Positions 394-16,743 of a stretch of 32,915 nt of DNA are shown piece by piece. The notes below the pieces were generated by a model, which made no database searches, was not told the DNA's origin, and saw only the letters and a program-made list of their open reading frames with translations. This stretch comes from Bacillota bacterium (GTDB lineage Bacteria > Bacillota > Sulfobacillia > Sulfobacillales > Sulfobacillaceae): NCBI GenBank assembly GCA_021841025.1, contig JAKBWA010000098.1:1-32915 (forward strand), in the 5' to 3' direction. Both the position numbers and the translations under genes were made by a program. Each line of letters begins with the position of its first letter. Position 1 is the first letter of the stretch.

Positions 394-1584
394 TTAGAGT
401 TCTTGCCCCAAGATTGTCGGAATATTGGCTGTGTGAACGGCAGGAGAAACGGCAGTTAAGGGTTCGCTGTGTTTGGCCAGAACACGGTATCCGCTATAGG
501 TGAGGACTGATGCCAGCACAATGCCCGCGATTTTGCCGACGAGTCCTCCTTCGGTTCCAAACATATGAGTCATCCAGCCCGTAACACTCACTTGAACAGC
601 CACGCCAATACCTGTGACAAGATAGAAACCAAAACGAGACAACTGTTTGCCGAAAGTATAGCGAGAGTGCAAATTATAGCCGACCAAACTTGCGCCGACC
701 CATGCCACCAGTGATTCAAAACCCGATTGCAGCCCATTGAAATAGGGTGGCCATAACTGAATCAAGCCCCAATAGATGGCCAGATCCACCAAAGTATTAA
801 TCAAGCCAGTAAGCCCAAAGCGCAGAAGCTGACGCGCTTCTCGAGAGGAATGGCGGTGTGATACAGCCAAAGTGAGAAGGGAGGGGGCGCATGCCAGCAT
901 AGTCCATAAACTGGCGCGTCTTTTGCGCACGCTCTTTTGCATAACCGGGACTTCAATGACATCAAGAGGCTGTTCAATCACCCGCAAGAGGGCTTCCACA
1001 TCGTAAAGCCATCCTTCTTGCGCACACTGGGTGAGGACACTGCGCGCGAATGGTCCCGGAAACATTTTGACTCCGGCTTGAGTGTCTTTAATAGGAAGAT
1101 GCAGCACGAATGCCGCGAGTTTGTGGGCGATATGGGACGACAAACGCTCTATGTGGGGCCGATTGTCGGCGACCCGCGAAGCAATGGCACAGGAGTGTTT
1201 GGATTCAAGGACTAATGCGGCCATAATGGGCAAGGCGTTAACCGGATACTCTAAGTCAGCATCAATGAATCCCACGGCCTCACCCTGGCTGTGGCTAAAT
1301 CCGGTTCGAAGGGCGTAGCCCTTTCCGTGATTCTTTTTTAACGCAATGACTTTAACCGAAGGGTAGCGAGTGCTGGCCTTGAGAGCCTCATCATAGGTGC
1401 CGTCAGTAGATCCGTCATCGACAACAATGATTTCAACATCCATATTTATGTGTTCGAATTCTCTGGTGATAGACGCTATGGCCTGGGCGATGTGTTGTTT
1501 CTCATTGTGGGCGGGGATTACCACAGAAACGATCAGGTTTGTGTGGGGATGCATCTTGGGATATTTCTCGGCAATTTCTTGCAT
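394..1584 (-). CDS. GT2 glycosyltransferase fused to a GtrA-like membrane domain
   Basis: The protein (396 aa) has two modules. The first (about residues 15-240) is a GT-A fold family 2 glycosyltransferase of the dolichyl/undecaprenyl-phosphate sugar synthase type, with SVVIPAHNE near the start, the VDDGSTDGT nucleotide-binding turn and a FIDADLEYP metal-binding segment. The second (about 245-370) is a four-helix GtrA-like domain that starts LLRFGLTGLINTLVDLAIY. Such fusions usually load a sugar onto a polyprenyl phosphate and help move it across the membrane. The donor and acceptor are not known here. The chosen ATG has a GAGGGAGG box about 13 nt upstream, a long spacing; an in-frame ATG at residue 11 is possible. 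It is the last gene of the minus-strand surface-polysaccharide block, 484 nt from the previous gene, with terminator-like hairpins in the leader. Confidence 0.85.
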   Translation of the reverse strand: MQEIAEKYPKMHPHTNLIVSVVIPAHNEKQHIAQAIASITREFEHINMDVEIIVVDDGSTDGTYDEALKASTRYPSVKVIALKKNHGKGYALRTGFSHSQGEAVGFIDADLEYPVNALPIMAALVLESKHSCAIASRVADNRPHIERLSSHIAHKLAAFVLHLPIKDTQAGVKMFPGPFARSVLTQCAQEGWLYDVEALLRVIEQPLDVIEVPVMQKSVRKRRASLWTMLACAPSLLTLAVSHRHSSREARQLLRFGLTGLINTLVDLAIYWGLIQLWPPYFNGLQSGFESLVAWVGASLVGYNLHSRYTFGKQLSRFGFYLVTGIGVAVQVSVTGWMTHMFGTEGGLVGKIAGIVLASVLTYSGYRVLAKHSEPLTAVSPAVHTANIPTILGQEL

Positions 1585-1626
1585 GGCAGAACCATGGCCT
1601 CCCTCAATTCATGTTAAATTCATCCT

Positions 1627-1655
1627 AAAAAAGAAGGCTCGGACATACAGTCCGA
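1627..1655 (-). terminator. Terminator-like hairpin in the leader of the GT2-GtrA gene
   Basis: On the minus strand a 6-bp stem (tcggac / gtccga, plus-strand positions 1639-1644 and 1650-1655, 5-nt loop) is followed by gcc and then a T-rich run (ttctttttt). It sits only about 40 nt upstream of the start codon, so it looks more like a leader attenuator than the end of a transcript. The stem is short, so this is a moderate call. Confidence 0.45.
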
Positions 1656-1832
1656 TCACCGGTCCCAATTTGTGTCTCACAGGCGTCTAAAAGCGCTTCA
1701 CTGACGACACTTCTCGGGGAACCTGACATTTTTTGCCAACCGATTCTTTATACGAATCGTACTGCTATGGGCGGTATTCTTGGCCGTTTTGAACGTCACG
1801 GGAGAGTATGTACCGGTGTAAATAAGTAGGCC

Positions 1833-1872
1833 AGAACAAAAGGCAATGAAAGAAGGGGCCTTCTGTCATTGC
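1833..1872 (-). terminator. Second hairpin after the glycoside hydrolase gene
   Basis: The outer stem is gcaatga / tcattgc (1843-1849 with 1866-1872) and the inner stem agaagg / ccttct. On the minus strand it is followed by ccttttgtt. It probably backs up the hairpin at 1997-2031 in ending the riboswitch-led transcript. Confidence 0.5.
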
Positions 1873-1996
1873 TCAGCATTAACGGGAGAACAAAACGGCT
1901 ATTCGCACAAGTCTAGTTATATTGAAGCGAGGAGCTCTTGATAAACGCGAGGGGTGGTGTAGTGTGCTTGAAAACATAAGAGGTTCATATACAGAA

Positions 1997-2031
1997 GGCC
2001 TGGCACCAGCAATGGGATCCGGTGCCAGGCC
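1997..2031 (-). terminator. Hairpin downstream of the glycoside hydrolase gene
   Basis: A perfect 11-bp stem (ggcctggcacc at 1997-2007 with ggtgccaggcc at 2021-2031) lies 38 nt past the stop at 2069. On the minus strand it is followed by ttctgtatat, which is only moderately T-rich, so termination may be partial. Confidence 0.5.
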
Positions 2032-2068
2032 GTGGGTAAAAAACTTCATTCACTAGGCTGTTTATATC

Positions 2069-4378
2069 CTATGGAGTTCCTGCGATTGTGATGGACAAGG
2101 GGAGACTTTTCAACCCACTGCCATTCGTTATGGTTACCGTAGCTTTTCCGGAATTTAGATTGGGTTCAAAGCGGTTATCAATGGCTTCTTTGTTGGTGGG
2201 AATCATAAAAGACACTTGAGAGTTTGACCAATGCAGAATTTTAATCGGATAATAATCCCCCGGCGCGCCGTAATTAACCGTGCCTTGACTGACTTCCACA
2301 TAGCCCTTGCGTTGTTGCGAGCCGAAGCCCGAGCCGCTGAGAGTGACAACTTGGCCAGGGGTAACCGGTAAGGCCGTTTGTATTGCGGCTGGCAAGTGTG
2401 GCGGAGATGTAATACTCAACGACAGTGGCGCTGTGCTTTGTTGGGTTGCTGTGACAATTTGGAGTGATGCGGGACCTGGTGTGAGGGCAGGGCCCGAAGT
2501 GCCGTCAGGAATCTGTACCTGGACTTGAGTATTGGTCCAATGAACAATATGGACTTTGTAAACGTCAGATGGAGATCCATAATTGACGCCGTTTTTACTG
2601 ATGAGAACATAACCGGCACCCTCTTGGCTGCCGAAATGAGATCCCGAGATCGTGACGATTTGTCCGGGATAGACGTGGGCCGAAGGGGTGATAGACGCCG
2701 TAAGATGAGCGGTTGACACGATCGTTACGGGGATGGTGGAAGAAACCACACGGTGAGCGGTTTCGACGAGGATTTGGGCTGTTCCGGGGCTAAGAGCCGG
2801 TCCCGAACTGCCGCCGGGAATGACAAACTGGATTTGATGAGGGGTCCAGGATTTTATTGACACCCTATAAGCATCTCCGGGCCCTCCATAATTGGTTCCG
2901 TTTTGGCTGATGATTACATGGGAGTGGGCTCCTTCATGGCCGAAACCCGTTCCCGATAGGGTGAGGGTTTCACCGGCGAAACCCTTCAAGGGTTTTTGAA
3001 TCTGCGGCACATTGGCTTGATATGTTGATGAGCTTCCCTTCATATCCATTGTGATCTGAAGATCAGATCCTGCCACAGACTGATTGTGATACACCTGCAT
3101 CGAGGCGGGAAGGATTTGGCCGGATCCGTGAGAGAGGGGTAAGGTCTCGGCCTTTGTGCTGGTATTGATGGCAAAGATGTGTGATCCTTGCGCTGAGGTG
3201 ACTTGCCCCACGATCATTTGGGACGTAGCCCATACAGACAAATGGCTTGCGGGGCCAATAGCTTGCATGAATTGGGATAACGCCACGGCCGAGGGATAAA
3301 AAGCGTTCATAGCCAACTCGGGGCTTTGGCCGTCTCCGGCTAAAGCAAAGAGTCCATAGGGTTTAGAAGAATTTGTGGCCACAGGCCATGATGAACTGGC
3401 CACATGGGCTTGCCCGTCATAGCTCCAAATGAAGAGTTTGCTGGCCCCCAAAGCCCGCCAAAGCATGGCGCTTTCAACCATCGCGGCTCCATAGACCGGT
3501 TGAGTGGATTGGGGCCCGGGTTGTCCATAGGGATTGAATTCGGTGACCCAGGTTTGAATGTTTGCGGCATAATGGGGGGAGACATTGGCGGTGATTTCTG
3601 TCTGAACAAACTGCATAGCCTGAGCAATTTCGTTGGGCAAGCTGGCCAACAGTGCTTGATTGCTCAGCGTGTGTTGATTGGGATAATCATGAATGCTGAC
3701 AAAATTGATGTAAGGTCCGTCTTCACGCAGAACGGTCTGATCCCACTGGAGACTGTTAGGGCCCTGGCCGAGGGTAAACGAGACGCCAACTTTCATGGCC
3801 GGGTCAATACGGTGAATCGCTTGGGCAATCAAAGCCGACTGATGGGCATAGTACTGCGGAGAAAAAGACGGATTGAGATTGGCATAGTGATCCCATGCCC
3901 CGTACTCTTCGCTGCCGATCACAATGGCGGAAATGGGCAGGTGATGGGTGACAATGTACTGGGTGAGTTGGGCGGCATCCCCAGGCGTTCCGCCGCCGGT
4001 AAAGGTAGGGTTTTCGTCATAATTAAAGATAAATAATCCTTGATTGGCGGTAGACTGTAAGATATTCCCCCAGTCTTGCAAAGAAACCGGAGCCTTACCG
4101 CCTGAGCGAAACGAATTGGAAGTCCAGCTCCATTCATTGGCATTGGGAAATTGTTGCATGCCCAGGCCTAATTGTCTTAATGCCGGAAGAGTGGAGGGGG
4201 CATTGAGTTGATTGTCATAGGAAAAGACATTAATACCGTAATCATATCGGCTGATTGGGGCTGTGAGAGGCGAGTTGATGGGCGTTGTGGACGCACTAGC
4301 CATCGTTTGAGCACTCATCGCAATAGGCAATAATGCCGCGCCTAAACAAACAGCCAGAGTTTTCGTGAGAACGTGCAT
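2069..4378 (-). CDS. Secreted glycoside-hydrolase-like protein with three IPT/TIG-like repeats
   Basis: This is a 769-aa exported protein. Residues 1-29 form a signal peptide. Residues about 40-320 look like a (beta/alpha)8 catalytic domain of GH-A clan type: IVIGSEEYG (Glu157/158) fits the acid/base strand and WVTEFNPYG (Glu280) the nucleophile strand. Three C-terminal repeats of about 100 residues (459-554, 562-656, 664-766) share a GSGFG-type turn, an NYGxPxDxY segment, a W-T/S-N-x-Q-V/I core and a GPALxPG loop, as in IPT/TIG immunoglobulin-like modules. The substrate is unknown; cleavage or binding of the locus's own exopolysaccharide is an inference. The start at 4378 is chosen because AAGGGGG lies 10 nt upstream and the signal peptide begins there; an upstream in-frame ATG would put the terminator hairpin inside the coding region. 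A c-di-GMP-I riboswitch and terminator precede it. Confidence 0.8.
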   Translation of the reverse strand: MHVLTKTLAVCLGAALLPIAMSAQTMASASTTPINSPLTAPISRYDYGINVFSYDNQLNAPSTLPALRQLGLGMQQFPNANEWSWTSNSFRSGGKAPVSLQDWGNILQSTANQGLFIFNYDENPTFTGGGTPGDAAQLTQYIVTHHLPISAIVIGSEEYGAWDHYANLNPSFSPQYYAHQSALIAQAIHRIDPAMKVGVSFTLGQGPNSLQWDQTVLREDGPYINFVSIHDYPNQHTLSNQALLASLPNEIAQAMQFVQTEITANVSPHYAANIQTWVTEFNPYGQPGPQSTQPVYGAAMVESAMLWRALGASKLFIWSYDGQAHVASSSWPVATNSSKPYGLFALAGDGQSPELAMNAFYPSAVALSQFMQAIGPASHLSVWATSQMIVGQVTSAQGSHIFAINTSTKAETLPLSHGSGQILPASMQVYHNQSVAGSDLQITMDMKGSSSTYQANVPQIQKPLKGFAGETLTLSGTGFGHEGAHSHVIISQNGTNYGGPGDAYRVSIKSWTPHQIQFVIPGGSSGPALSPGTAQILVETAHRVVSSTIPVTIVSTAHLTASITPSAHVYPGQIVTISGSHFGSQEGAGYVLISKNGVNYGSPSDVYKVHIVHWTNTQVQVQIPDGTSGPALTPGPASLQIVTATQQSTAPLSLSITSPPHLPAAIQTALPVTPGQVVTLSGSGFGSQQRKGYVEVSQGTVNYGAPGDYYPIKILHWSNSQVSFMIPTNKEAIDNRFEPNLNSGKATVTITNGSGLKSLPLSITIAGTP

Positions 4379-4410
4379 AGAGACAATTCCCCCTTGTGAG
4401 GAGAATGTTG

Positions 4411-4452
4411 AAAAAAGGACAGCCTCCCGAAAAGGGGGAAACTGTCCTTTTT
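4411..4452 (-). terminator. Intrinsic terminator between the riboswitch and the glycoside hydrolase
   Basis: On the minus strand aaaaaggacag (4452-4442) pairs with ctgtccttttt (4422-4412), with a smaller G/C-rich inner stem, and the 3' arm ends in six T. It lies 8 nt after the riboswitch and about 33 nt before the start codon, exactly where the expression platform of a transcriptional riboswitch belongs. Confidence 0.8.
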
Positions 4453-4460
4453 GTCCCATC

Positions 4461-4555
4461 CCATTTCGGCAACTGGCTGGCATTCGTCTTGTCCACGAGA
4501 AGCCCCTTTAGTTTTGCGTCTCCAGCTTTCGCTAGGTTTGCCTTTTTCGATATGG
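4461..4555 (-). promoter_or_regulatory. c-di-GMP-I (GEMM) riboswitch
   Basis: On the minus strand the aptamer core is present in order. GGCAAACC (4542-4535) is followed by a P2 stem CUAGC-GAAA-GCUGG with the GAAA tetraloop, then GACGCAAA (4520-4513), then a CUAAA segment that fits the tetraloop-receptor side of P3, and finally UGCCAGCCAGUUGCC (4482-4468), which matches the conserved 3' strand. The outer ends CCAUAUC (4554-4548) and GAAAUGG (4467-4461) pair with one mismatch to close P1. This class binds cyclic di-GMP. The output is probably transcriptional, through the adjoining terminator. Whether ligand turns the gene on or off cannot be read reliably by eye. Confidence 0.9.
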
Positions 4556-4645
4556 TGCCCTTATGTTCAACTTCTCATCTCGGTTATTAATACGGTGTAG
4601 TGCAATGATGGCGTGAAGTGAGAAGGTAATTCTGCTGATATATTT

Positions 4646-4674
4646 ACGATAATGGGCAAGTTCTGGTGCGTCAA
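4646..4674 (-). promoter_or_regulatory. Candidate promoter of the riboswitch transcript
   Basis: On the minus strand TTGACG (4674-4669) and TATCGT (4651-4646) are separated by 17 nt and lie about 90 nt upstream of the riboswitch. The -10 matches consensus at only four positions, so the call is tentative. Confidence 0.35.
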
Positions 4675-4737
4675 ATCTTAGACGTTAAATTATGGGGAAT
4701 ATTTTCGGATTACCGCCGAATCCGCTCAAAACTATGC

Positions 4738-6402
4738 TTAGGGAGCTGAAGGTAAAATGGCATACAGCCGATAATCATTGCCTCCCGGAAAAGATTTAAT
4801 AAGGTGGGTCCATGGTTCGTGTCCGGCCCACAACCCGGGCCATGCCCGGGTGACGGCGTCGAGCTGAGCTACGTTAGCGGGCCTCGGAACAAGAAAGGCC
4901 GCGATGCGTCCTTTGGGATTATGAAGAATCGATGCAAATTTATAATCCGATGTTATGGTGAACTGATTAAGGTGCTTGGCGCGTATAATGATGGGCCAAT
5001 CAATAAAGGTATCCGCCAAAATGCTGAGGTGGGGATGGTTATTGATGTATTGTACAAGCGGTTGACCGGCATAAAAGGGATTGTTGCCCGTATACTTTAA
5101 ATTCTGGCCTTGAAAGGCCGCATCGAGAATTGAACCGTCAGGATGGCCTAGATAAGAGACTTGAAGAGTTCTTAGTGTGACAACACTGCCGGAAACAAAG
5201 ACGACACTAACGAGAAGACCGGTCCAGAACACTCGGGTTTTGGACCAAGATGGCCACCCGGAGCAAATTTTCTGGACAGCAAACGAGCCCAAGAGAATAC
5301 CGTTCGGAATAAATTCGAGAAAATATCGATCCCATTGCCCCAAATGCCCTTCGTAACAGAAGAACAGTTCCAGCAATTCCGCTCCTATGGTTCCCAAGAT
5401 GAGAATAATCCCTCGTGCGTCGCGCCTTTTGCCGAAAGAGAACCACAGCGTGATTAAGAAGGCAGGATAAATCGGCCAATAAAACAGGCCGAAGCGCACA
5501 ACGTAAAGCACAGCTCCCAAGATATGATGATCGGCCTGAGACATAGCTGGGGTCATATAGGCTCCCGTAGCCGTTTGAGCTAAATTCCCATAACTGGAAG
5601 TGAGAAAATATAGGGGGTTTTTCATGATAATCCAGTTGAAATAAATCCAAATTCCTCCCGCAAACACGATCGGTGCTCCTAACAGGATTGCGGATCCTTG
5701 TATATGAGACAATGATTTTTTGCCCCATTGTCCCAGAACTAAGGCGATAATGACCAGAAGGCCGAAAGCCACAGCCTCATAGCGCATTCCCAGGCCTGCC
5801 CCCAACCAAAAACCTGCAACAACCAAACGGCGCAGAGAACCCGTTTGGAGATAGTCGAAGAGTCCGCTATAAGTTCCCAGCATACAGGCCACCCACATGA
5901 TGTCGCTCATGCCGTTGGCTCCATAGAGGACAATAAGCGGATTCAAGGAAAAGCACAATGTCAGGACCACACGCCACCATTTGGGCAGCGATATATTTTT
6001 GAGAATATGAGCGAGATGATAAGTTGCTATTGATCCTAGCGCTGCTGATACCACTGCTCCCGCCAGACCTTTAGTCACAACAGACGGAAACCAAGGGTGC
6101 AGCGCGACAAACGGAAGCTCCAACAGGCTTGGCAATGGATTCCAAATGAATCCGATGGCGCCCAAATGCGGGTTGCGGCTAAACAACACGTAGTAGGCGT
6201 TGGCTACCCGCGATACGGCATCTCCTGCATAATAGTGCATGTCGAATACGAGATATGCCGCAAAAGCGCAATTCACGATAAATGCCGATAGGGAAATCAC
6301 AGCTTCTAGGCTTATGCGATGCATCTTTTTTGTATTGTGCCGGGATTCACGTTTTAATGATTGAGCATTCTCAATAGGACGATCAAGTATGGCACTACTC
6401 AT
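4738..6402 (-). CDS. Polytopic GT39/ArnT-like glycosyltransferase
   Basis: This 554-aa integral membrane protein has roughly ten hydrophobic helices. After the first helix it has an extracytoplasmic loop with GDAVSR, where GT39/GT83 (protein mannosyltransferase and ArnT) proteins carry their catalytic acidic residues, and GMRYEA further on. Proteins of this fold use polyprenyl-phosphate sugars on the outer face of the membrane, which fits the GT2-GtrA gene of the same locus as donor maker; that pairing is inference. The start at 6402 is chosen because AGGAGAA lies 5 nt upstream, and ATGAGTAG makes it overlap the stop of the upstream two-TM gene, implying translational coupling. A weak hairpin (cggatt / aatccg, 4706-4724) follows the stop. 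Acceptor and sugar are unknown. Confidence 0.7.
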   Translation of the reverse strand: MSSAILDRPIENAQSLKRESRHNTKKMHRISLEAVISLSAFIVNCAFAAYLVFDMHYYAGDAVSRVANAYYVLFSRNPHLGAIGFIWNPLPSLLELPFVALHPWFPSVVTKGLAGAVVSAALGSIATYHLAHILKNISLPKWWRVVLTLCFSLNPLIVLYGANGMSDIMWVACMLGTYSGLFDYLQTGSLRRLVVAGFWLGAGLGMRYEAVAFGLLVIIALVLGQWGKKSLSHIQGSAILLGAPIVFAGGIWIYFNWIIMKNPLYFLTSSYGNLAQTATGAYMTPAMSQADHHILGAVLYVVRFGLFYWPIYPAFLITLWFSFGKRRDARGIILILGTIGAELLELFFCYEGHLGQWDRYFLEFIPNGILLGSFAVQKICSGWPSWSKTRVFWTGLLVSVVFVSGSVVTLRTLQVSYLGHPDGSILDAAFQGQNLKYTGNNPFYAGQPLVQYINNHPHLSILADTFIDWPIIIRAKHLNQFTITSDYKFASILHNPKGRIAAFLVPRPANVAQLDAVTRAWPGLWAGHEPWTHLIKSFPGGNDYRLYAILPSAP

Positions 6403-6619
6403 AGGTTTTCTCCTGGGTAACGACGTGGGGAACAGTGGACGAAAGCGGCGCTGCTTTATCGCGTTTTTTATGTGAGGACAGTACTCCATAAACCACCCCT
6501 GTGCCGATAAAGAAGACTAAGGGGGCCAAGTCGATAATCCAAAAAATTCCCAACATTAATATCAAACTGGTTGCTATCATAAAGAGCGCGCCTATAATTA
6601 TGGCGTAGGGTCGAAGCAA
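6395..6619 (-). CDS. Small two-TM membrane protein, possible glycosyltransferase partner
   Basis: This 74-aa protein has two hydrophobic helices (about residues 4-24 and 28-48) joined by a very short loop, then a basic, charged tail of about 25 residues. The TTG start is supported by AAAGGAG 8 nt upstream, and the stop overlaps the ATG of the next gene. I do not recognise a named family. Its size, topology and position just after a processive GT2 gene recall PgaD, the small two-TM partner of PgaC in poly-N-acetylglucosamine synthases. That analogy rests on layout, not on sequence match. Confidence 0.65.
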   Translation of the reverse strand: MLRPYAIIIGALFMIATSLILMLGIFWIIDLAPLVFFIGTGVVYGVLSSHKKRDKAAPLSSTVPHVVTQEKTYE

Positions 6620-6677
6620 AGGACTTTTCTCCTTTCCATTGAATGGTGTTTTGGGTTCGTTTTAAGCTTAGGCCAGG

Positions 6678-8870
6678 CTATCCATTAGATTGCAGAAATC
6701 CGGATGGCGATTGAACTTTCTTCCAGTCGACCAGGCCATGATCGGTCTTTTCCCAGTGCGAGGGTCTGGTTATAAGCTGAATGAGAGCTTTCCATGAGGC
6801 CAAAGACATCATGCTCCAGTAGATCGGGGTGAGAATGGTGTATGGCACCAAGTCCCATCGCCCGCGTTTGGCAGCGCCGACACTGTTGAGGTAAGTGAAG
6901 GCAAAATTGCCGATTAGGAGATTCATCATCCCCAGATAATAAATGCCGGGCGGGAATAGATGGGGGATAAGGCCCCAATGAGTCATAAACCATAACGAGG
7001 TGATAAACCAGTACAAAGGATTGAGGATGAACATGAGTGGAGTCCCTAAAATGGCCAGCTGAAATCCCCAGAACCCCTTGCGCCCCAGTTGCCGGCGCAA
7101 CTGGAGAGGATGGCGCATATGAACAAGCCAGGTTTGCAAGTAGCCCTTAATCCACCGGGAACGCTGTCTGATCCAATTGACAAATTCCGAATTGGCTTCT
7201 TCATAGGTTAGGGAATCGATGACAGCCGTCCGGTAGCCGACTTTGTGCAAGCGAATTCCCAGATCGGCGTCTTCGGTCACGTTGTACGGATCCCATGCTC
7301 CGATTTCTTTCAGGACGCGGGCGCGGAAATGATTCGACGTGCCTCCTAACGGAATGGGCATGTCGGCCGCATGAAGAGCCGGCAAAAGCAAGTCAAACCA
7401 CGCGCCGTATTCTGCTGTAAACCACCGGGTTAGGAGATTTTGATTCGCATTAAAATAGGACAACTTGGCTTGAACACAAGCCAGGCGACTGTCCGCTCCG
7501 CGAAAAGCTAATAGTGCCTTTTTAAGCTGAGAGGGTTCGGGAAGGTCTTCAGCATCATAGATTGTGATAAATTCTCCTCGCGCCCGCTGCAAGCCAAAAT
7601 TGCAGGCCTTGGGTTTCGTCCGCGGCTCAGCCACCGGAACTATGACGATTTCGACAAAATGGGGAAGATTGGCTTGATGGGCAGCAGCTAGTGTTGTTTC
7701 ATCGTCTTCTTCCAACAAGAGTTTGACATCTAGGCGATCACGAGGATAGTCGAGTTGCTGCAAGGCATGGGACATGATCGGCAAAACCGACGCTTCATCC
7801 CGAGCCGGTATCAAAATGGTGTAAATGGGGAGATCTGAATCTTTAAGCTTTCGTAACTCTTCGGCCGTGAATTGGACATCATTTTGGGATTGGGTGCCTT
7901 TGTGGATAATCCAAAGCCGGTGCGCCACTAAAATCGCGTACGCGAACACCACCATACTGCTTATCACCGACAGAGTGACTTGAGCATGCCATATGAGCAT
8001 GAGGGTCACAAGGATACTCGTCGCTCCAAGGGCGAGAAACTGGCCACGAGTCACGGTCCTCGTGGCAGAATTCTCTGGGCTGATGTCGAGAAGATGGGAC
8101 TTGGCGCGTTTAAGGTCTTGTTCCTGGTAATGTCGGGCCAGTTGCCAGGCAATGTCTCTTTGCCCGGTTAATGTGACGGTGATCTGTCTGTCGGTTTTGG
8201 ACGCTAAGGACATCGGCCCTTTGTTGTCAAAAGGATTCACCATTGCCACTATGATTTCCTTTGACGTGGAAGAAACGGGCACCATGCCGTATCGTCTCCA
8301 TTCTTCTTCGCTCAAAAGAGAGAAGACGGCATCAAGGCTTTGGGAATCTTGCTCTCTTGGCTCAAGGAGATCGGTTAAAGGAATGCCGGTTTGCTCACTT
8401 ATAATGGTTGCCACTTGCCAGGAATTCAGCGCATGGATTGCTACGCAGGCTTGCCCGATAGTCCCTCCCTGTTTTTGTTGAATGGTGAGAGCCTGGTCTA
8501 GGAGTTGAGGATTGAGGGCATATTTTTTGATAGCAATTTCTCCAAAGCGTGACGGGTTTTCACCCGGGGTGCCGTAAATTTTCCACTGGGCCATGAGTAA
8601 ATCACTCAACTCGGTGCGGTAGATGCGTACCGGACCTAAAGGGTCTAAGAGTGCCCACGCGGCTGGAGACAAAGGTGCGGAGGCAGCCACCCATAAACAG
8701 CCGCCTTTGCGGCAAAAAGGAAGGATGCCCATGTCCCGGGCCTGGTCGGGGCTGATAAGGAAGGCGGCGGACGGATCAATGTCGTGGCCGGGAATTGCTG
8801 CGTGATGACTACCGCTAATTAAGGCAACAGGAGGGACTTGATTCCAAAGTTCGATGGGATTGACACTCAC
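6678..8870 (-). CDS. Processive GT2 glycosyltransferase with N-terminal MshEN-type c-di-GMP module
   Basis: This 730-aa protein resembles XagB-type exopolysaccharide synthases. Residues about 108-170 match the two tandem motifs of the MshEN (GspE N-terminal) domain: RFGEIAIKKYALNPQLLDQA, then GGTIGQACVAIHALNSWQV and EQTGIPLTDL. In MshE such motifs bind c-di-GMP. Helices near 278-320 anchor the protein. The cytoplasmic GT-A domain follows (350-575) with TILIPARDE, LLLEEDD, IYDAEDLPEP, TEDADLG and QRSRW, which correspond to the D, DxD, TED and QxxRW motifs of cellulose and PNAG synthases. More helices close the protein. The GTG start has GTGAGG about 8 nt upstream. It lies between the exosortase and the two-TM gene. 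Likely role: polymerising and extruding a surface polysaccharide under c-di-GMP control. The monomer is unknown. Confidence 0.85.
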   Translation of the reverse strand: MSVNPIELWNQVPPVALISGSHHAAIPGHDIDPSAAFLISPDQARDMGILPFCRKGGCLWVAASAPLSPAAWALLDPLGPVRIYRTELSDLLMAQWKIYGTPGENPSRFGEIAIKKYALNPQLLDQALTIQQKQGGTIGQACVAIHALNSWQVATIISEQTGIPLTDLLEPREQDSQSLDAVFSLLSEEEWRRYGMVPVSSTSKEIIVAMVNPFDNKGPMSLASKTDRQITVTLTGQRDIAWQLARHYQEQDLKRAKSHLLDISPENSATRTVTRGQFLALGATSILVTLMLIWHAQVTLSVISSMVVFAYAILVAHRLWIIHKGTQSQNDVQFTAEELRKLKDSDLPIYTILIPARDEASVLPIMSHALQQLDYPRDRLDVKLLLEEDDETTLAAAHQANLPHFVEIVIVPVAEPRTKPKACNFGLQRARGEFITIYDAEDLPEPSQLKKALLAFRGADSRLACVQAKLSYFNANQNLLTRWFTAEYGAWFDLLLPALHAADMPIPLGGTSNHFRARVLKEIGAWDPYNVTEDADLGIRLHKVGYRTAVIDSLTYEEANSEFVNWIRQRSRWIKGYLQTWLVHMRHPLQLRRQLGRKGFWGFQLAILGTPLMFILNPLYWFITSLWFMTHWGLIPHLFPPGIYYLGMMNLLIGNFAFTYLNSVGAAKRGRWDLVPYTILTPIYWSMMSLASWKALIQLITRPSHWEKTDHGLVDWKKVQSPSGFLQSNG

Positions 8871-9003
8871 AGAGATGGCCTCACTTTGTTAATTTATTTT
8901 GATCTGGGATCATCAAGATGCAATACGCGTTTGGTAACTTTTTACAGAGCGCATATTCCCGAGAAGAAAGATTGAATCCCAATAAACTCTTATATCCTGG
9001 TGC

Positions 9004-10629
9004 TTAGTTTGGTTTTGGGTTTTTGAGGCTCTGGCGAAAAATTTTTCCAGCCATCGCAATCAAGGTGGCACGGGTTTTCAAAAGCGTGGGATTCCAATGT
9101 CCCTGAGAAGCTGGCGCTACCATAGACTGAACCACAGACAACGGTTGCAGGGGACGGGAATGATCAAAGCCTGGAGGCAGAGACGGAGCATTATGGGGAA
9201 AGGCCGCGATTGACCAACGCATGTAGCGTTCCTGTCCATGAACCATGACAGCGTTATTCCATTCCACATCGACGTAAGTTGAACGTGGCCCTCCGACATG
9301 GTTGGGGGGAAGTTGTACGCTGTAAGCCGTGGCAATGACCCCGGGTACCAGTTGGAATGACTGCACAGCTTGTAGAGAATCGCCATGGTACAGCAAACAG
9401 GCGTGAAATCCGTATGTTGCCAGTTTGGAAGCAAAAGGCGTACTCCACATCTCCACCAGTGCCTGGCCCCCGCCTTTCTGCAAGGAATACATATCAGCCT
9501 GAGTGGCAGAACCCAGACCCAAAATAGAGGATTCATTGGCATAATAGACCGGATTTTGAACAAATCCTGTTAAACGCGGCAGAAAAGTGCGCGGATTAAA
9601 AACCGGAACGGTGGAAGGATTGCCGAATGATCCTTTGGGCAGGGAGAAGAGCGGCCACGAGAGTATAAAGATCAAGGCTGCGAAAATTGCGGCACTTCCC
9701 ATGCGTCCCCACCCGGGTTTCTTAACGCGCGATGCGGCAAGAGGAGGAACACTCAGTCCGAACGGCCGGGACAAAAGCATGAGAGATGCGACCAACATCG
9801 CGAATAGTAAAAAGCCCAGGACAGGGTGAATATCAGCAAACGTAAACTTGGGGCCGATAGTGTGGACAGAGAGCACAATGACGGCCAGACGGACCCAGTT
9901 AATAATGAGGGAGCCCAAAAGGGCAATGAGGCTGATCCCAATTTTATTGATCACCCGCCCTTTGAAGGCAAACCATAAGACGGGAATCACAATGGCAGAA
10001 CCTAAGAGGCTATCTGCGCCGCTACAGGCTTGAGCCACCACGACTAACACCGGATAGTGGTGATAGGATACCAAGAATGTGCCAAAGGGCAGCGAGGGCG
10101 CGAGCCATTTCACGTGATGAGCAAGAAGCATCAAAGATTCTACGGCCCAACGAACCAGAACATTTTGGGTGGCGTTGGCAATCGCGGCAAAAATGGGAGG
10201 CCAAACTAAGAACAGATACGTTAGGGGGGCCAAAACGGCTCTGGTGGCGGGCAAACCCCAAAAGAGCCAAGTCATGGCCAAGATCCAAAATGGCCACAAT
10301 AACAATCCGCCGTGGTCATGGACGAAAAGGGTCGGCCATCTTTCCGGAGCTAAAACCAGTGCGGCCCCAATCATGATCGCCAGCATAGCGCCTAGAATCA
10401 GATTGAGTTCTCCGTCCTCCGGCTCACTGGAATTGTTGGCCAGGATGTTCCATAGAGCCCATCCCAGAGCAATTATTGGGATCCAAATTAAATCGGCAAT
10501 CGGCGTGTCAGCCAATAAATTGTTCCATAACGGATTGGCATAAGCCAATAATGGAATTACTGAGACAATAATCCATAATAGCCAATATGCCGATAACCGG
10601 TTGACATGGTGTCGTTCAACATTAGTCAC
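9004..10629 (-). CDS. Exosortase with a C-terminal extracytoplasmic domain
   Basis: This 541-aa polytopic protein belongs to the exosortase/archaeosortase family. The catalytic triad is visible: Cys202 in QACSGADS, Arg247 in INWVRLAV and His268 in DIHPVLGF, each next to a membrane helix as in the family. After the last helix (about 315-330) some 200 residues follow that are rich in aromatic and polar residues; this is the position that EpsI-like domains occupy in fused exosortases, but I cannot confirm homology. The GTG start at 10629 is chosen for GGGGGAGG 7 nt upstream. Exosortases cleave PEP-CTERM tails and are usually found with exopolysaccharide genes; the next gene upstream encodes a candidate substrate and the next downstream a polysaccharide synthase. 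Finding one in an apparently monoderm genome is uncommon. Confidence 0.85.
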   Translation of the reverse strand: MTNVERHHVNRLSAYWLLWIIVSVIPLLAYANPLWNNLLADTPIADLIWIPIIALGWALWNILANNSSEPEDGELNLILGAMLAIMIGAALVLAPERWPTLFVHDHGGLLLWPFWILAMTWLFWGLPATRAVLAPLTYLFLVWPPIFAAIANATQNVLVRWAVESLMLLAHHVKWLAPSLPFGTFLVSYHHYPVLVVVAQACSGADSLLGSAIVIPVLWFAFKGRVINKIGISLIALLGSLIINWVRLAVIVLSVHTIGPKFTFADIHPVLGFLLFAMLVASLMLLSRPFGLSVPPLAASRVKKPGWGRMGSAAIFAALIFILSWPLFSLPKGSFGNPSTVPVFNPRTFLPRLTGFVQNPVYYANESSILGLGSATQADMYSLQKGGGQALVEMWSTPFASKLATYGFHACLLYHGDSLQAVQSFQLVPGVIATAYSVQLPPNHVGGPRSTYVDVEWNNAVMVHGQERYMRWSIAAFPHNAPSLPPGFDHSRPLQPLSVVQSMVAPASQGHWNPTLLKTRATLIAMAGKIFRQSLKNPKPN

Positions 10630-10875
10630 ATCAAGTCCTCCCCCGAAAACTCGTTGCCTAACACTCGAGCCCATGCTATGGCACGAGAGGATACTTTGAC
10701 AGTCCCTCCCACGGTCTCAAACTCAGTATCATGGCAGGGCACAGAGGATCCCTGGAGTGACTTTAGTTGTAGATTCGAGCGCCCACACAACATGGGAAAA
10801 AGAGAGAACGATTCCGAGTCACAAGAAATGAAAATCACCTGAGTAAAGGTCTTGGAATAGTAGGGGCAGGGAAAA
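10630..10875. other. Leader region ahead of the exosortase gene
   Basis: About 245 nt separate the exosortase start from the terminator of the PEP-CTERM-like gene. A minus-strand frame of 70 codons (10626-10838) ends with a TGA that overlaps the exosortase GTG, but it has no ribosome binding site and no recognisable content. I see no riboswitch core and no strong promoter. Confidence 0.4.
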
Positions 10876-10902
10876 TAAAAAAACCCGCGATGATCTCGCG
10901 GG
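10876..10902 (-). terminator. Strong intrinsic terminator of the PEP-CTERM-like gene
   Basis: On the minus strand CCCGCGA pairs with TCGCGGG around a 5-nt loop (10902-10884), followed directly by seven T and then ATTTT. It lies 17 nt after the stop at 10920 and should largely separate that transcript from the exosortase gene. Confidence 0.9.
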
Positions 10903-10919
10903 AGGGGATGATATAAGAA

Positions 10920-11441
10920 TTAGGCGCGAATTGATCGGCGCTTTATGGATATACCTAAAGGGATCAATGATAAAAGCGGTAATCCTGCAGCCCAGGGGAC
11001 TTCAGGCAATTGACCGGTGGCAAAGGCCGACTCGGTCATTTTAATCAGAACATTTGACCAGGTGTACCCTTTAGGCAATGTGATAGTGGCGGTGTATTGT
11101 CCAGTTTTCGTGACCTGGCCGGAGCTCTTTGAGAGCAGTTGGACTTGGCTGGGATTATCTTTGGGTGCGAAATACACGGACACATATTGTCCTTTCGTTA
11201 ATCCACTCCAAGTCCACGTCGCTGTTCCTGTTGTTGAGCTGGTTTCAGTAATGGTAATCGTTCCACTACCATTAACATTGGCCACAATGGACGAGTGTAG
11301 CAGGCCTAGCGCTGGGGCTGGTGCAGATATTGTCTTTTGGGTCGCTGGGGTTGTAGCCATGGAAGATCCACTCGCGCCTAAAAGCAGCGTGCTGGCAATT
11401 CCCACGGATCCCATGACGCGCCAAATTGCAGTCAATTTCAT
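10920..11441 (-). CDS. Small secreted protein with PEP-CTERM-like sorting tail
   Basis: This 173-aa protein has a signal peptide (residues 1-30), a Ser/Thr/Gly-rich beta-type middle with no Cys (about 50-140), and a tripartite C-terminus: PEVPW at 146-150, a hydrophobic helix (151-166) and a basic end, KRRSIRA. That is the layout of PEP-CTERM proteins, the substrates of exosortases, and the exosortase gene is next. PEVPW is not the most common form of the motif (usually a VPEP-like core). A sortase-type signal is less likely, because the LPEVP segment lacks the Gly of LPXTG. The ATG has AAAGGAA about 8 nt upstream. Likely role: a small abundant surface or matrix protein processed at Glu147-Val148 or nearby; this is inference. 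Confidence 0.75.
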   Translation of the reverse strand: MKLTAIWRVMGSVGIASTLLLGASGSSMATTPATQKTISAPAPALGLLHSSIVANVNGSGTITITETSSTTGTATWTWSGLTKGQYVSVYFAPKDNPSQVQLLSKSSGQVTKTGQYTATITLPKGYTWSNVLIKMTESAFATGQLPEVPWAAGLPLLSLIPLGISIKRRSIRA

Positions 11442-11513
11442 CAGAACCGTTCCTTTCCTTTCATCAATTTATTCACTGTGCACTGATCACCTGCGTCCTG
11501 TGGTGACAAACAT

Positions 11514-11542
11514 AATATAGAGAGTGTTTATGGGTCTGGCAG
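11514..11542 (-). promoter_or_regulatory. Candidate sigma-A promoter of the PEP-CTERM-like gene
   Basis: On the minus strand CTGCCA (11542-11537) and TATATT (11519-11514) are separated by 17 nt. The -10 matches consensus at five of six positions and the -35 at four. The untranslated leader would be about 65 nt long and includes a small hairpin, tcacc-N10-ggtga. Confidence 0.45.
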
Positions 11543-11608
11543 TCCCGGAGTTGGTCTCAAATGATGTCTCGAATTGGATGAAATCTTGCTCAAGTACTCT
11601 TGAAAACA

Positions 11609-11628
11609 GAGACTTTAGCTGAGACTTT
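11609..11628 (+). repeat. Direct repeat upstream of the GGDEF-EAL promoter
   Basis: GAGACTTT occurs twice (11609-11616 and 11621-11628), 12 nt apart start to start. The pair sits where the -35 region of the extended -10 promoter at 11645 would lie. The arrangement suits a dimeric activator, but the spacing is not exactly one helical turn. Confidence 0.35.
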
Positions 11629-11644
11629 CTAGGCGTTTGGATTT

Positions 11645-11653
11645 TGCTATACT
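11645..11653 (+). promoter_or_regulatory. Candidate extended -10 promoter of the GGDEF-EAL gene
   Basis: TGCTATACT is a TGn-extended -10 element with five of six matches to TATAAT. No good -35 is present, as is common for extended -10 promoters. The leader to the start at 11717 would be about 57 nt. Confidence 0.45.
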
Positions 11654-11716
11654 CCTTGAGAAAATATTGGGTAAAATTCCGGAAATGATCCGATGAAGTG
11701 GGAAGGATGTTACGAT

Positions 11717-13471
11717 ATGTATTCGTTTGTATCAGGGGCGTTGGGGCACAAAGAGGATAATAGCCAGGGGCTTTGTCCGTGGTCAGAGAAAGATATCTCA
11801 CAGATGGCCGATTTACCTTGGCAGGCTATTACGGATCGTGCTTTGGCCTTATGCGCCGCCGAGACCAAACGCAGTAACTCCAGAGAAAATGCGGGAAAAC
11901 AGTTGGCAAATCTTCGTGAACAGACTTTAGTGGCATTACGAGAAGTGTGCGAAAGGCTTCGAAACGCTCCGGCATCCCCGGACTGGCGATTACCCTCGCG
12001 AACGGACGCACTGACTTCTTATACTAAAGCCCGTCGATCCATTGATGAAGGACTCCAGGGATATTGGTTGATACTGTCGGCGACTATTGATGAATTATTC
12101 GCCTCGCAAAAACCTGCTTCTGTGATTCAAGAGTATCTGAAAACCTTGTTTAAACGGGTGTTGCTGGAGGTTTATCTAACGGGTTCCCATCACCTTTCTG
12201 ATTTTATGTTTCGTGATGTTGTCACTTTTAGCGCCAACCGTTTGGCCACGCAATTACGACTGGAGGCGCTTTTAGCACAAAAAAGCCCCTTTGTGTTGAT
12301 TTCTGCTGATTTAAACGGTTTCAAAGCTGTCAATGACACCTATGGGCATGCTGCTGGGGACAGTGTTCTGAATGTGGTGGCGCAAAGATGGCAGAGGTTA
12401 TTGCGACCCTCTGATTGGATGGGCCGGTGGGGAGGCGATGAATTCGTATTGATTTTGTCCAATCCCTTAAGCGCTAAAGCCGTTGTGGATTTTGGGAACC
12501 GCATTCGCCAAGCTTGTGAAGAACCGATCGCGTTGGCAGAGATTGACCGGGTTACCGTGTCTTCTTCCTATGGATATGCCCGCTATCCCGAAGAAGGTGA
12601 GGACATCGAACAAATCCTGGCGGTAGCCGATCAGAGACTTTATTTAGCCAAACAATTCTTGGCAGGGGGTGTTGATTCAAGCCGGGTCGATATTAGTGAG
12701 AGCACTAAATGGTCGGAGCGTATCCAAACGGCCCTAAAGACCAACCGTATTGATGTGTACTACCAACCAATTTTGCATAATGATGTGAATGTGCCATTCC
12801 AATGGGAAGCCCTGGTCCGATACCGGGACATAAACGGACAAATGCATTATCCCTCCGAATTTTTACCCGTTCTTCCGCCGGATGTTGTTCAGCAAATGGA
12901 TCAAGCCGTTATTGGCCGTGTGTTTGAAGATGTAAACCGCTGGCGTTCACGAAATCACCGTTTTAGGGTGGCCGTCAATGTTCATCCTTCCGATCTGGCC
13001 GCAACCCAGTGGAAAACACATTTAACCCGCTTGCATGATGAATTTCCTTTAGTGCTGCCCCAAGATATTACCTTCGAGGTGCGAGAATCTCTGACTGACA
13101 AGGGAGGATACCACATCATGGAATCGCTTCGCCATTTGCAGCACCAGGGATATCAAATTGCTCTGGATGATTTTGGTACGGGCACTACTCCTTTGCATGG
13201 ACTGCACAAGATGCCCATAAATTCCGTTAAAATCGATTTCACGCTGACAAGACAATGGGGGTCCGACGCAGGTCGGCGACTCATTCGGTCTGTCATTGGG
13301 TTGGCGACGTCCATGGGGTTGTCTGTCATTGCCGAAGGCATAGAGAGTCAGACACAACAAGACCTCTTAAGTCAATGGGGCTGCCAGGCCGGGCAAGGCT
13401 GGCTTTACACCGAGGCTATACCCTCTGCGGAAGTAGAAGGATGGACATTCCCCAGCCATGTCGTCAAGTGA
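11717..13471 (+). CDS. GGDEF-EAL protein (diguanylate cyclase / c-di-GMP phosphodiesterase)
   Basis: This 584-aa cytoplasmic protein has three parts. Residues 1-185 are mostly helical and match no domain I recognise. The GGDEF domain (190-320) has SADLNGFKAVND, an intact GGDEF at 239-243 and an inhibitory I-site RPSD at 230-233, exactly five residues before it. The EAL domain (335-575) keeps the catalytic set: Glu364 of EALVRY, Asn421 of VNVHPSDL, Glu454 of FEVRES, Asp484-Asp485 of DDFGTG, Lys505, Glu540 of AEGIES and Gln560 of GQGW. Both activities may therefore be possible, with product inhibition of the cyclase. The start at 11717 is chosen for GGAAGG 10 nt upstream; an ATG 24 nt earlier has no such site. 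The gene is divergent from the exosortase/polysaccharide block and is an obvious candidate to set its c-di-GMP level. Confidence 0.92.
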   Translation: MYSFVSGALGHKEDNSQGLCPWSEKDISQMADLPWQAITDRALALCAAETKRSNSRENAGKQLANLREQTLVALREVCERLRNAPASPDWRLPSRTDALTSYTKARRSIDEGLQGYWLILSATIDELFASQKPASVIQEYLKTLFKRVLLEVYLTGSHHLSDFMFRDVVTFSANRLATQLRLEALLAQKSPFVLISADLNGFKAVNDTYGHAAGDSVLNVVAQRWQRLLRPSDWMGRWGGDEFVLILSNPLSAKAVVDFGNRIRQACEEPIALAEIDRVTVSSSYGYARYPEEGEDIEQILAVADQRLYLAKQFLAGGVDSSRVDISESTKWSERIQTALKTNRIDVYYQPILHNDVNVPFQWEALVRYRDINGQMHYPSEFLPVLPPDVVQQMDQAVIGRVFEDVNRWRSRNHRFRVAVNVHPSDLAATQWKTHLTRLHDEFPLVLPQDITFEVRESLTDKGGYHIMESLRHLQHQGYQIALDDFGTGTTPLHGLHKMPINSVKIDFTLTRQWGSDAGRRLIRSVIGLATSMGLSVIAEGIESQTQQDLLSQWGCQAGQGWLYTEAIPSAEVEGWTFPSHVVK

Positions 13472-14901: not shown

Positions 14902-16560
14902 TCATATGTCTTCTTCGCGTTCCATCACGGTGTTTTCGCCAAGCTGAGTTTCAATCTGAAGTCCTGGAGCCTTGCATAGGTCATGACAATTGGCTTCAAG
15001 ACTGCAACACAAGGAACAAATCGTGCCTTGGTGATGCGGACAATGCATCATGTCGCGGGTTTCGAAAGAAAAATCGCAGACCTTGCAGTTTAATTCCCCA
15101 GAAAGCTGGACGATTTCAGGGCTGGTCCGGGCAATATAATAGCGGCCCCGGGTAATAATGGCAATCATGGGTGAAAGCACAAAGGCTAAAATGAGAGACA
15201 AAAAGGAAGAAAAGGCGGCAAGAGTGGCGCCAAATAGGCCAAAATAGGCGGTAATAGAGACAATAGACGCGATAATCATCGCGCCGAAGCCCACGGGATT
15301 GAAATGATATAAATGTCCCCTCCTGAACTCGATGTAGCTGGGGCTAAGTTTAAGAATGGGTTTATTTATCACCAGATCGGCAACCAGGGCTCCAATCCAA
15401 GCCACTGCAACATTGGAATAGAAACCCAAAACCGCACTGAGAAAGTTAAACACGCCCAGTTCCATCAAAGTCAAGGCGATACCTACATTTAAAATCAACC
15501 ATACCACCCGGCCGGGATGAGCGTGAAAGATGCGGGAAAAGAAATTGGACCACGACAAAGATCCTGAATAGGCATTGGTCACATTGATCTTAACCTGGGA
15601 GATTAAGACAAAGAACGTGCCGATCGTTAAGGCCATGGCGACACTGGGTATCCATAGATGCAGGGCATGTAGATACATTTGAATGGGTTGGTCCGCTTTG
15701 ACGGGGCCCACCAGAGGTGATGCGAAAGAAGCGAGAACTGAACCGCCGATTTGTTTGGCGGCACCGAGAATAACCCATCCCGGCCCTGCGAGAAGCACCG
15801 CGCGCCACCATGCCCGCTTGTTATGTTCTGTCAAATCGGGCATGAAGCGGAGATAGTCGACTTGTTCGCCGATTTGGGCAATTAAAGACAACGTCACACC
15901 TGCAGCGGCCCCAAAGAACAAGGCATTAAAGGTTCCTTGTCCGTGGCTTCCCAAAAAATGTGTCCAGTGTGTAAATATCTGGGGTTGTTTAGTGGCGATA
16001 ACAATGAGAGGCAACACCAAAAGGGCAAGCCACAGGGGCTGGGTCCAGACCTGCAATTTGGACAAGAATGTCATTCCATATATGACTAAAGGGATAATAG
16101 ACACCGAAGCCACGACATAGCTCAAGGCTAAAGGAATGCCAAAGTAGACCGTAAGTGCCTGGGACATCACCGATCCTTCCAAGGAAAAATAAATAATGGT
16201 GAAGGAGGCATAGATCAACGAGGTCAGCGTGGATCCGTAATAGCCAAAACCAGCTCCACGGGTAAGCAAATCCATGTCGATATTGTAGCGGGCCGCATAA
16301 TAGGCAATGGGGATGCCCGTCAAGAAGATGATAGCGGCTACGACGAGAATGGCGGGTAAGGCATTGGAAAAGCCATAACTTAGCGTAATGGAACCGCCAA
16401 TAGCAAAGTCAGCGAGATAGGCAATGCCGCCTAAAGCCGAGCTGGCTACGGCAAACTCACTCCAACGCCGGAATGATTTTGGGGCATAACGCAATGCATA
16501 ATCTTCCATGACAGGGTTGTTGACAAAGGAATTAAACTGCCTTTTGGAAAGTTTTTTCAC
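14902..16560 (-). CDS. NCS1-family permease with cysteine-rich C-terminal tail
   Basis: This 552-aa protein has about twelve membrane helices and the look of nucleobase:cation symporter 1 (cytosine/purine/hydantoin) permeases: an N-terminal NPVMEDYALRYAPKSFRRW segment leading into the first helix, then IPIAYYAARYNIDMDLLTRG. The last 64 residues form a soluble, Cys-rich module with eight cysteines (492, 495, 507, 515, 518, 519, 525, 529), including CPHHQGTICSLCCSLEANC. From memory, a closely similar CPxxxGxICSLCC module links NCS1-like permease domains to histidine kinase or cyclase domains in larger sensor proteins. Here the protein ends soon after, with no enzyme domain. The GTG at 16560 is chosen for TAGGGGGT about 7 nt upstream. 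Substrate unknown; it lies downstream of panB-panE but 183 nt away. Confidence 0.8.
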   Translation of the reverse strand: MKKLSKRQFNSFVNNPVMEDYALRYAPKSFRRWSEFAVASSALGGIAYLADFAIGGSITLSYGFSNALPAILVVAAIIFLTGIPIAYYAARYNIDMDLLTRGAGFGYYGSTLTSLIYASFTIIYFSLEGSVMSQALTVYFGIPLALSYVVASVSIIPLVIYGMTFLSKLQVWTQPLWLALLVLPLIVIATKQPQIFTHWTHFLGSHGQGTFNALFFGAAAGVTLSLIAQIGEQVDYLRFMPDLTEHNKRAWWRAVLLAGPGWVILGAAKQIGGSVLASFASPLVGPVKADQPIQMYLHALHLWIPSVAMALTIGTFFVLISQVKINVTNAYSGSLSWSNFFSRIFHAHPGRVVWLILNVGIALTLMELGVFNFLSAVLGFYSNVAVAWIGALVADLVINKPILKLSPSYIEFRRGHLYHFNPVGFGAMIIASIVSITAYFGLFGATLAAFSSFLSLILAFVLSPMIAIITRGRYYIARTSPEIVQLSGELNCKVCDFSFETRDMMHCPHHQGTICSLCCSLEANCHDLCKAPGLQIETQLGENTVMEREEDI

Positions 16561-16743
16561 GAGAAGACCCCCTACCGAGAAAGATTCCACACAATCTTTG
16601 TGGATCTGTTTAAGAATAGCGGACTTCACGAAAAATTTTTTGTGCCGCCATGACAAGAAATAGCGGGGAAGATGCATCATCCCCCAAGTGGGTGGCATCT
16701 TCTCAAGCGATCTAGACAGAATCCGAAATTTGACGGAGTAGGG

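Follow-up and report, generated by a model that had tools for sequence, protein, structure and literature searches.

The locus at positions 394–13471 of a contig from a Sulfobacillus-like genome, one of the acid-loving bacteria, raises the question of whether predicted genes for a surface polymer, an exosortase and cyclic di-GMP (c-di-GMP) signaling belong together or merely lie side by side. The whole contig, 32,915 nucleotides in length (JAKBWA010000098.1; contig C116 of assembly G000, 3.39 Mb in 118 contigs), is referred to as the window. In order of transcription, the minus strand carries an exosortase substrate, an exosortase, an MshEN module fused to a family 2 glycosyltransferase (MshEN-GT2), a PMT_2 glycosyltransferase, a c-di-GMP-I riboswitch, a glycoside hydrolase with TIG domains (GH-TIG), and a GT2 protein with GtrA/DPMS features. 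A GGDEF-EAL gene is divergent from the substrate gene, the first gene of the minus strand. The original prediction, made from the window alone, held that RNA-level sensing, protein-level sensing and local turnover of c-di-GMP are combined in this one block. The combination of three linked kinds of c-di-GMP element was confirmed, and its parts and coordinates were right. We lean towards interpreting the locus as a conserved system, linked to c-di-GMP signaling, with which monoderm acidophiles assemble surface material.

Recurrence of the locus among relatives

We compared the locus across 34 genomes of the family and a wider draw of 398 genomes from the phylum, with 14 further genomes serving as controls for Omp85. 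The long form of the exosortase is held by 17 of the family genomes, and all 17 also encode MshEN-GT2, the two genes mostly lying less than 10 kb apart. In two complete genomes of the same genus (G017 and G018) both genes are kept at a distance of approximately 190 kb. Among the 398 phylum genomes, an exosortase of this type was found only in family members and in one genome of another family within the same class. The core of exosortase and MshEN-GT2 recurs in that genome and in several metagenome-assembled genomes (MAGs) outside the sampled species; most of the distant MAG loci with the core (L071, L075, L079, L080 and L212) also hold a protein with the LPEVP signal described below, a PMT_2 enzyme, or both. 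Full-length GH-TIG genes number 20, one of which begins 77 bases from the end of its contig; a c-di-GMP-I riboswitch lies directly upstream in 19 of the 19 that could be tested, corresponding to 18 distinct cases because one is a contaminant copy of the S. benefaciens gene (contig C106). Of 13 genomes with 5–19 GGDEF genes each, 12 have a GGDEF gene no more than approximately 4 kb away from either the exosortase gene or the riboswitch-GH-TIG gene.

If unrelated envelope genes had come to lie side by side in one lineage, large intergenic gaps, a gene order rearranged between genera and the approximately 190-kb separation in two complete genomes would be expected features, and all are observed. 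Such a chance neighborhood is nevertheless very improbable, because exosortase and MshEN-GT2 occur in the same genome even when split, the riboswitch and GGDEF linkages are nearly without exception, and the core recurs in distant MAGs. By this comparison of gene content, the locus is a conserved system and not a chance cluster. Random scatter of these genes in related genomes had been named as the result that would refute the original prediction; instead, gene content and linkage are both repeated from genome to genome in the family.

Assembly G000 contains a second exosortase and a second riboswitch, both on contig C106 (L028, L052 and L219). These were considered as paralogues and rejected, since C106 matches S. 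benefaciens AMDSBA1 (G013) at 99.87% identity across 19.7 kb and duplicates the chromosomal region of the window. Contig C92 (L215) is 99.8% identical to the same strain, while contigs C115 and C117 are only approximately 70–80% similar to S. benefaciens. C106 and C92 are most likely cross-species contamination of the assembly, and the window is therefore taken as the species' own and sole copy of the locus. The S. benefaciens-like contig C106 also carries a HEARO RNA (RF02033, 121 bits; L052:7476–7701) beside an open reading frame (ORF) of 378 amino acids. Named relatives of the window's exosortase are found in S. benefaciens AMDSBA1 (79%), S. thermotolerans Kr1 (55%) and S. harzensis, along with many acid-mine MAGs. 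None of the 34 family genomes yielded Omp85, which was found in 7 of the 14 controls. Its absence across the family is consistent with a monoderm envelope and agrees with the initial description of the host as apparently monoderm.

Table 1. Positions of predicted features of the locus within the window, with the evidence for each.
Feature	Positions	Strand	Evidence
GT2 + GtrA/DPMS protein	394..1584	-	PF00535 112.8 bits; PF04138 46.7 bits
Secreted GH-TIG: clan GH-A (GH51/GH79/GH39-like) domain + IPT/TIG domains	2069..4378	-	TIG 43.7 bits; profile and fold matches
Hairpin pairing UUCUCC with Shine-Dalgarno-like GGGGGAA	4388..4405	-	folding and leader alignment
Terminator-like hairpin (expression platform) after aptamer	4412..4452	-	-25.1 kcal/mol, z -5.8; U6 end; aptamer not overlapped
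c-di-GMP-I riboswitch aptamer	4465..4552	-	RF01051 71.9 bits (gathering 35), E 2e-12, full length
PMT_2 / GT39-like polyprenyl-phosphate-sugar-dependent membrane glycosyltransferase	4738..6489	-	PF13231 35.9 bits (cut-off 26.1)
MshEN-GT2: N-terminal c-di-GMP-receptor-type module fused to cellulose-synthase-like processive GT2	6678..8870	-	PF05157, PF13641, PF13632
53-residue tandem MshEN motif (residues 108-160)	8391..8549	-	alignment of 15 sequences
Exosortase, EpsH family, 556 aa	9004..10674	-	PF09721 52.8 bits (cut-off 25.7); TIGR04178 40.2 bits (cut-off 23)
Intrinsic-terminator-like hairpin 3' of substrate gene	10884..10902	-	CCCGCGAGATCATCGCGGG then TTTTTTT
Exosortase substrate, 173 aa	10920..11441	-	signal-peptide-like N-terminus, small beta-sandwich domain, C-terminal sorting signal
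LPEVP-CTERM sorting signal LPEVPWAAGLPLLSLIPLGISIKRRSIRA	10923..11009	-	homologue alignment and tail search
Divergent GGDEF-EAL (start perhaps 11717)	11693..13471	+	PF00990 113.7 bits; PF00563 166.1 bits; both far above cut-off

The exosortase and a candidate sorting signal

The assignment of the exosortase was upheld by two profile matches above cut-off and by retention of the Cys-Arg-His catalytic residues (C217, R262 and H283), which are invariant in 17 of 17 homologues. The protein also has an extra C-terminal domain bearing an invariant cysteine (Cys426). EpsI was suspected as the identity of this domain from the cysteine and the domain's position, but was set aside because no Pfam model matched. 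A sequence search returned no relatives of the exosortase with solved structures. A second, short exosortase type (approximately 330 amino acids, with a CSGSDS motif) occurs in genus g10 of the family (L048–L051), within another conserved neighborhood of large ORFs that lacks MshEN-GT2.

The C-terminus of the substrate (LPEVPWAAGLPLL...KRR) is conserved in 11 homologues and is the most conserved part of the protein, the N-terminal parts being divergent. Invariant across the 11 are L-P-E-V-P, the next Ala, two Pro and one Arg. The tail has a tripartite organization, consisting of the LPEVPWAA motif, a transmembrane (TM) helix and a basic RR end. Searching with a profile of the tail revealed the same signal on approximately 40 distinct proteins with diverse N-termini, a count that may be too low as it derives from the profile search only. 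Further proteins were recovered by a tail-only search in 17 of 17 genomes with the long exosortase and in 2 of 6 genomes without it (Fisher p ~0.002); in one of these two (G031), the tail gene is at a contig end, just where the exosortase would come next, and the other exception is G030, discussed below. It is from a pattern of this kind, a shared tail on diverse proteins that co-occurs with an exosortase, that exosortase signals are recognized. When 10 members were compared with the NCBIfam and Pfam CTERM models, none gave a convincing match (best E 0.09), and the signal, for which we propose the working name LPEVP-CTERM, is apparently undescribed. The substrate had been predicted to be PEP-CTERM-like; this holds for its tripartite tail, but it is not a standard PEP-CTERM protein in that no curated model matched.

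The predicted structure of the substrate is a beta-sandwich (pLDDT ~90) with a C-terminal TM helix. Assignment of a function from the fold was rejected, only generic beta-sandwich matches being obtained (FnIII-like and others, Z ≤7.1). The terminator-like hairpin after the gene suggests that the substrate is probably transcribed alone.

Predicted polymer enzymes and their possible control by c-di-GMP

The MshEN module of the synthase scored 58.5 bits with PF05157 (cut-off 23.1) and the GT2 domain 88–91 bits with PF13641/PF13632. Relatives in the PDB are PilF/PilB/MshE, and BcsA, and the processive GT2 motifs DxD, TED and QxxRW are present in 15 of 15 sequences. The protein scores below the cut-off of the NfrB family model (NCBIfam NF008411, 34 versus 1170 bits). 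VcMshEN makes its polar contacts to c-di-GMP through Q32, Q61 and the G11/G40 dipeptides (PMC5013675). The equivalents of Q32, G40 and Q61 (Q131, G139 and Q160) are invariant in all 15 sequences, and that of G11 (G110) is present in 14. These polar contacts are kept although the MshEN domain has few invariant positions, and hydrophobic positions are kept as well. It is fairly probable that the module binds c-di-GMP.

GH-TIG falls within clan GH-A, based on profile and fold matches to GH51, GH79 and GH39 and on two glutamates, E157 and E280, that are invariant in 9 of 9 sequences down to 29% identity. All domain calls of the original prediction were reproduced, most above curated cut-offs, except its GH39 call, for which PF01229 scored 13.9 bits against a cut-off of 26. 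The longest ORF for GH-TIG starts at 4483, and the riboswitch match begins within that ORF; the start codon is most likely the ATG at 4378, after the aptamer. The GT2-GtrA/DPMS protein likely makes a polyprenyl-phosphate sugar. The PMT_2 match upholds the GT39-like assignment. Such an enzyme was originally proposed to decorate the polymer, but its target may be the sorted protein instead.

The riboswitch-GH-TIG unit is found in either orientation and can be separated from the exosortase by 40 or 190 kb, indicating that the RNA goes with the GH-TIG gene and not with the locus. With approximately 57 riboswitches in approximately 119 Mb, chance placement is negligible. The riboswitch is the sole c-di-GMP-I riboswitch of the window's species, as is the case in G001, G011, G012, G017, G018, G019, G021 and G026. 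The terminator-like hairpin is kept in relatives, often without the U-tract, and control in those relatives may be translational. In ten aligned leaders, a GGGA just after the aptamer and a UUCUC before the Shine-Dalgarno (SD) sequence are invariant; the other c-di-GMP-I riboswitches of the family showed no GGGA at this site. By complementarity, GGGA could pair either with the UUCUC anti-SD or with the hairpin's UCCC arm. The former pairing would free the SD, and closure of the aptamer's P1 would remove GGGA, leaving the OFF structures. In C. difficile, every class I riboswitch that was tested functioned as an OFF switch; the transcript of one class I riboswitch gene was raised with c-di-GMP (PMC6200980). 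The OFF precedent, the complementarity of GGGA, and the lack of overlap between aptamer and hairpins together make it likely that the riboswitch is an OFF switch. A permutation p of 0.0002 for the linker and SD region mostly reflects the hairpin's own stem and was not used for polarity. The original claim that the riboswitch wires the whole block was not sustained, since it would govern only the GH-TIG gene and possibly the GtrA gene, and is more likely OFF than ON.

Other c-di-GMP-I riboswitches of the family (L143–L172) precede EAL/GGDEF genes, genes for LuxR-like regulators and a histidine-kinase-like ORF, the last being followed by a second conserved gene behind the riboswitch in G029–G032, G007 and G008. 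The family would thus appear to have a wider, uncharacterized c-di-GMP regulon.

A residue-by-residue check of the GGDEF-EAL protein of the window found the GGDEF motif, the RxxD I-site, and the metal ligands, Lys and catalytic Glu of the EAL domain all to be present. Across six orthologues the GGDEF motif and I-site are invariant (6/6), but the EAL glutamate E548 is replaced by Gln in two of five, and most other species carry a GGDEF protein in place of GGDEF-EAL. This decay and replacement of the EAL domain suggest that the conserved local function is c-di-GMP synthesis with product control rather than turnover. The prediction of local turnover with both sites intact is accordingly true of the window's protein, but some orthologues have not kept the EAL domain as an active enzyme. 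The locus-linked GGDEF proteins vary in architecture, being either GGDEF-EAL or GGDEF alone, and because of this difference the association with the locus was probably re-established on more than one occasion. A second GGDEF protein (GAF-GGDEF, 662 amino acids; 30341–32329, plus strand) is encoded 17 kb away, adjoining genes for DnaE and a flavin reductase, in a position also kept in S. benefaciens.

A proposed mechanism, its alternatives and related systems

That the locus serves to assemble a surface polymer plus a sorted protein is quite likely, and this is the best reading of what had been put forward as a new matrix-building system, the matrix itself being only predicted. We propose that the local c-di-GMP pool generated by the GGDEF(-EAL) protein would bind MshEN and activate the GT2, which would polymerize and extrude a polysaccharide. 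The GtrA-DPMS GT2 would make a polyprenyl-phosphate sugar, to be used by PMT_2 outside the membrane on the polymer or the sorted protein. The exosortase would recognize and cut LPEVPWAA-TM-RR tails, and the LPEVP proteins would be passed to the cell surface or matrix. The secreted GH-TIG would cleave the polymer, and the c-di-GMP-bound riboswitch would turn the GH-TIG mRNA OFF. If the riboswitch is OFF, c-di-GMP would activate the synthase yet silence the hydrolase: at high c-di-GMP synthesis would be on and trimming off, and at low c-di-GMP synthesis would be off and the release enzyme on. This whole reciprocal scheme is tentative, and we place it somewhat below even odds. In an extension of it, the locus would represent a separate class of exosortase system in monoderms, with protein sorting coupled mechanistically to the c-di-GMP-activated synthase: the exosortase would attach LPEVP proteins, once cleaved, to the growing polymer, and the riboswitch-controlled hydrolase would free the protein-polymer complex as c-di-GMP falls. 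We consider this extension quite improbable.

Several observations weigh against the mechanism as proposed. The intergenic gaps of 130–490 bp, together with a terminator-like site, count against a single operon; scans for promoters and terminators performed close to chance (15 found of each, versus 14.4 and 13.4 expected), so individual sites weigh little. In the MshEN module the R38 equivalent is Thr, both turn glycines (the G18/G47 equivalents) are lost, and the NCBIfam c-di-GMP motif scores 25 bits against a cut-off of 38. Protein-level sensing, as originally claimed, is favored by the PF05157 match and the polar contacts, but the module is partly degenerate. For the riboswitch, covariation between linker and hairpin arm in support of an antiterminator was not significant (p = 0.17; P1, p = 0.10), and folding with the aptamer locked left SD pairing unchanged, the SD remaining sequestered whether or not the linker was included. 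G017 and G018 have MshEN-GT2 downstream of GH-TIG and on the strand of the latter; should the two genes share a transcript, an OFF switch would reduce the synthase along with the hydrolase. The hydrolase activity of GH-TIG is itself presumed from its predicted fold and the two glutamates. One 97% complete genome (G030) encodes an LPEVP-tailed protein (L213:8097–8837) with no exosortase detected; this may be an orphan substrate, or the exosortase may have been missed, or another sorting enzyme may be involved.

The tandem arrangement behind the riboswitch in G017 and G018 would fit an ON switch, by which c-di-GMP would raise both synthase activity and the hydrolase, the latter acting in polymer maturation and not release. 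PslG is such a maturation hydrolase within the Psl cluster. Glycoside hydrolase genes are described as frequent in extracellular polysaccharide (EPS) clusters (PMC9075953), and one C. difficile class I riboswitch gene is, as noted, raised by c-di-GMP (PMC6200980). On the other hand, the ligand-bound aptamer is compatible with both the terminator-like and SD hairpins, no hairpin-opening element was found in the leaders, and the tested C. difficile class I riboswitches were uniformly OFF (PMC6200980), so that we regard the ON polarity as rather unlikely. A different division of labor would have GtrA-DPMS and PMT_2 O-glycosylate the LPEVP proteins, with MshEN-GT2 making a short glycan donor. A polyprenyl-phosphate-sugar synthase and a PMT_2 transferase are the classical O-mannosylation pair; an enzyme pair of this type is predicted here, and the substrates are rich in Ser/Thr. 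Against this, the GT2 retains every processive motif (DxD, TED and QxxRW) and resembles BcsA by profile, and a secreted GH-A hydrolase is stably associated with the system. We consider protein glycosylation with sorting unlikely.

The model for the exosortase step is the PEP-CTERM/EpsH system (Haft et al. 2006, PMC1569441), with which the locus shares an EpsH-family Cys-Arg-His exosortase, a tripartite tail (motif, TM helix and Arg-rich end) and linkage to exopolysaccharide genes. It differs in having LPEVPWAA in place of V-P-E-P with no NCBIfam PEP-CTERM match, in belonging to a monoderm family without Omp85, and in including a c-di-GMP-receptor GT2 and a riboswitch. In E. coli, the MshEN-GT2 NfrB is activated by a cyclase in direct contact (PMC8669469). 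The NfrB-NfrA/DgcJ system likewise combines a processive GT2 fused to MshEN with a local diguanylate cyclase, but in NfrB the MshEN module is C-terminal, whereas here it is N-terminal, the partner is an exosortase instead of the outer-membrane NfrA, and a riboswitch-controlled hydrolase is added. A class I riboswitch in C. difficile shuts off the secreted protease PPEP-1/ZmpI, and c-di-GMP promotes the adhesins that this protease sheds (PMC6200980, PMC11477304). Both systems place a class I riboswitch before a secreted surface-trimming enzyme in a monoderm, with c-di-GMP-promoted surface components nearby; here the enzyme is a glycoside hydrolase, sorting would be by an exosortase and not a sortase, and synthesis would be under a protein sensor and not a class II riboswitch. 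The Gram-positive XrtG/XrtP pairs (TIGR03110/TIGR03111, NF053846) also set an exosortase-family protein beside a GT2 and gave weak profile matches, but these fell far below all family cut-offs, and the present locus has the MshEN fusion and a sorting signal. The parts of the locus appear to be known and their conserved arrangement to be new, the sorting signal being the one element that seems undescribed.

A comparison of three bioleaching species reported the PEP-CTERM exosortase system only in Leptospirillum and not in S. thermosulfidooxidans (PMC5418355), and we found no gene-level account of pyrite attachment and EPS building by Sulfobacillus. The locus offers a concrete gene set for mineral attachment and EPS in Sulfobacillus and could explain how these bacteria stick to minerals. 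It adds a sorting signal that current models do not cover and places exosortases in a monoderm context. One second messenger may set synthesis and removal of one polymer oppositely, through a protein sensor and an RNA sensor.

Outside the locus, at 14902–16698 on the minus strand, a 598-amino-acid ORF with no match among Pfam or NCBIfam models lies between the TauE and ApbA genes and shows 86–88% identity in relatives.

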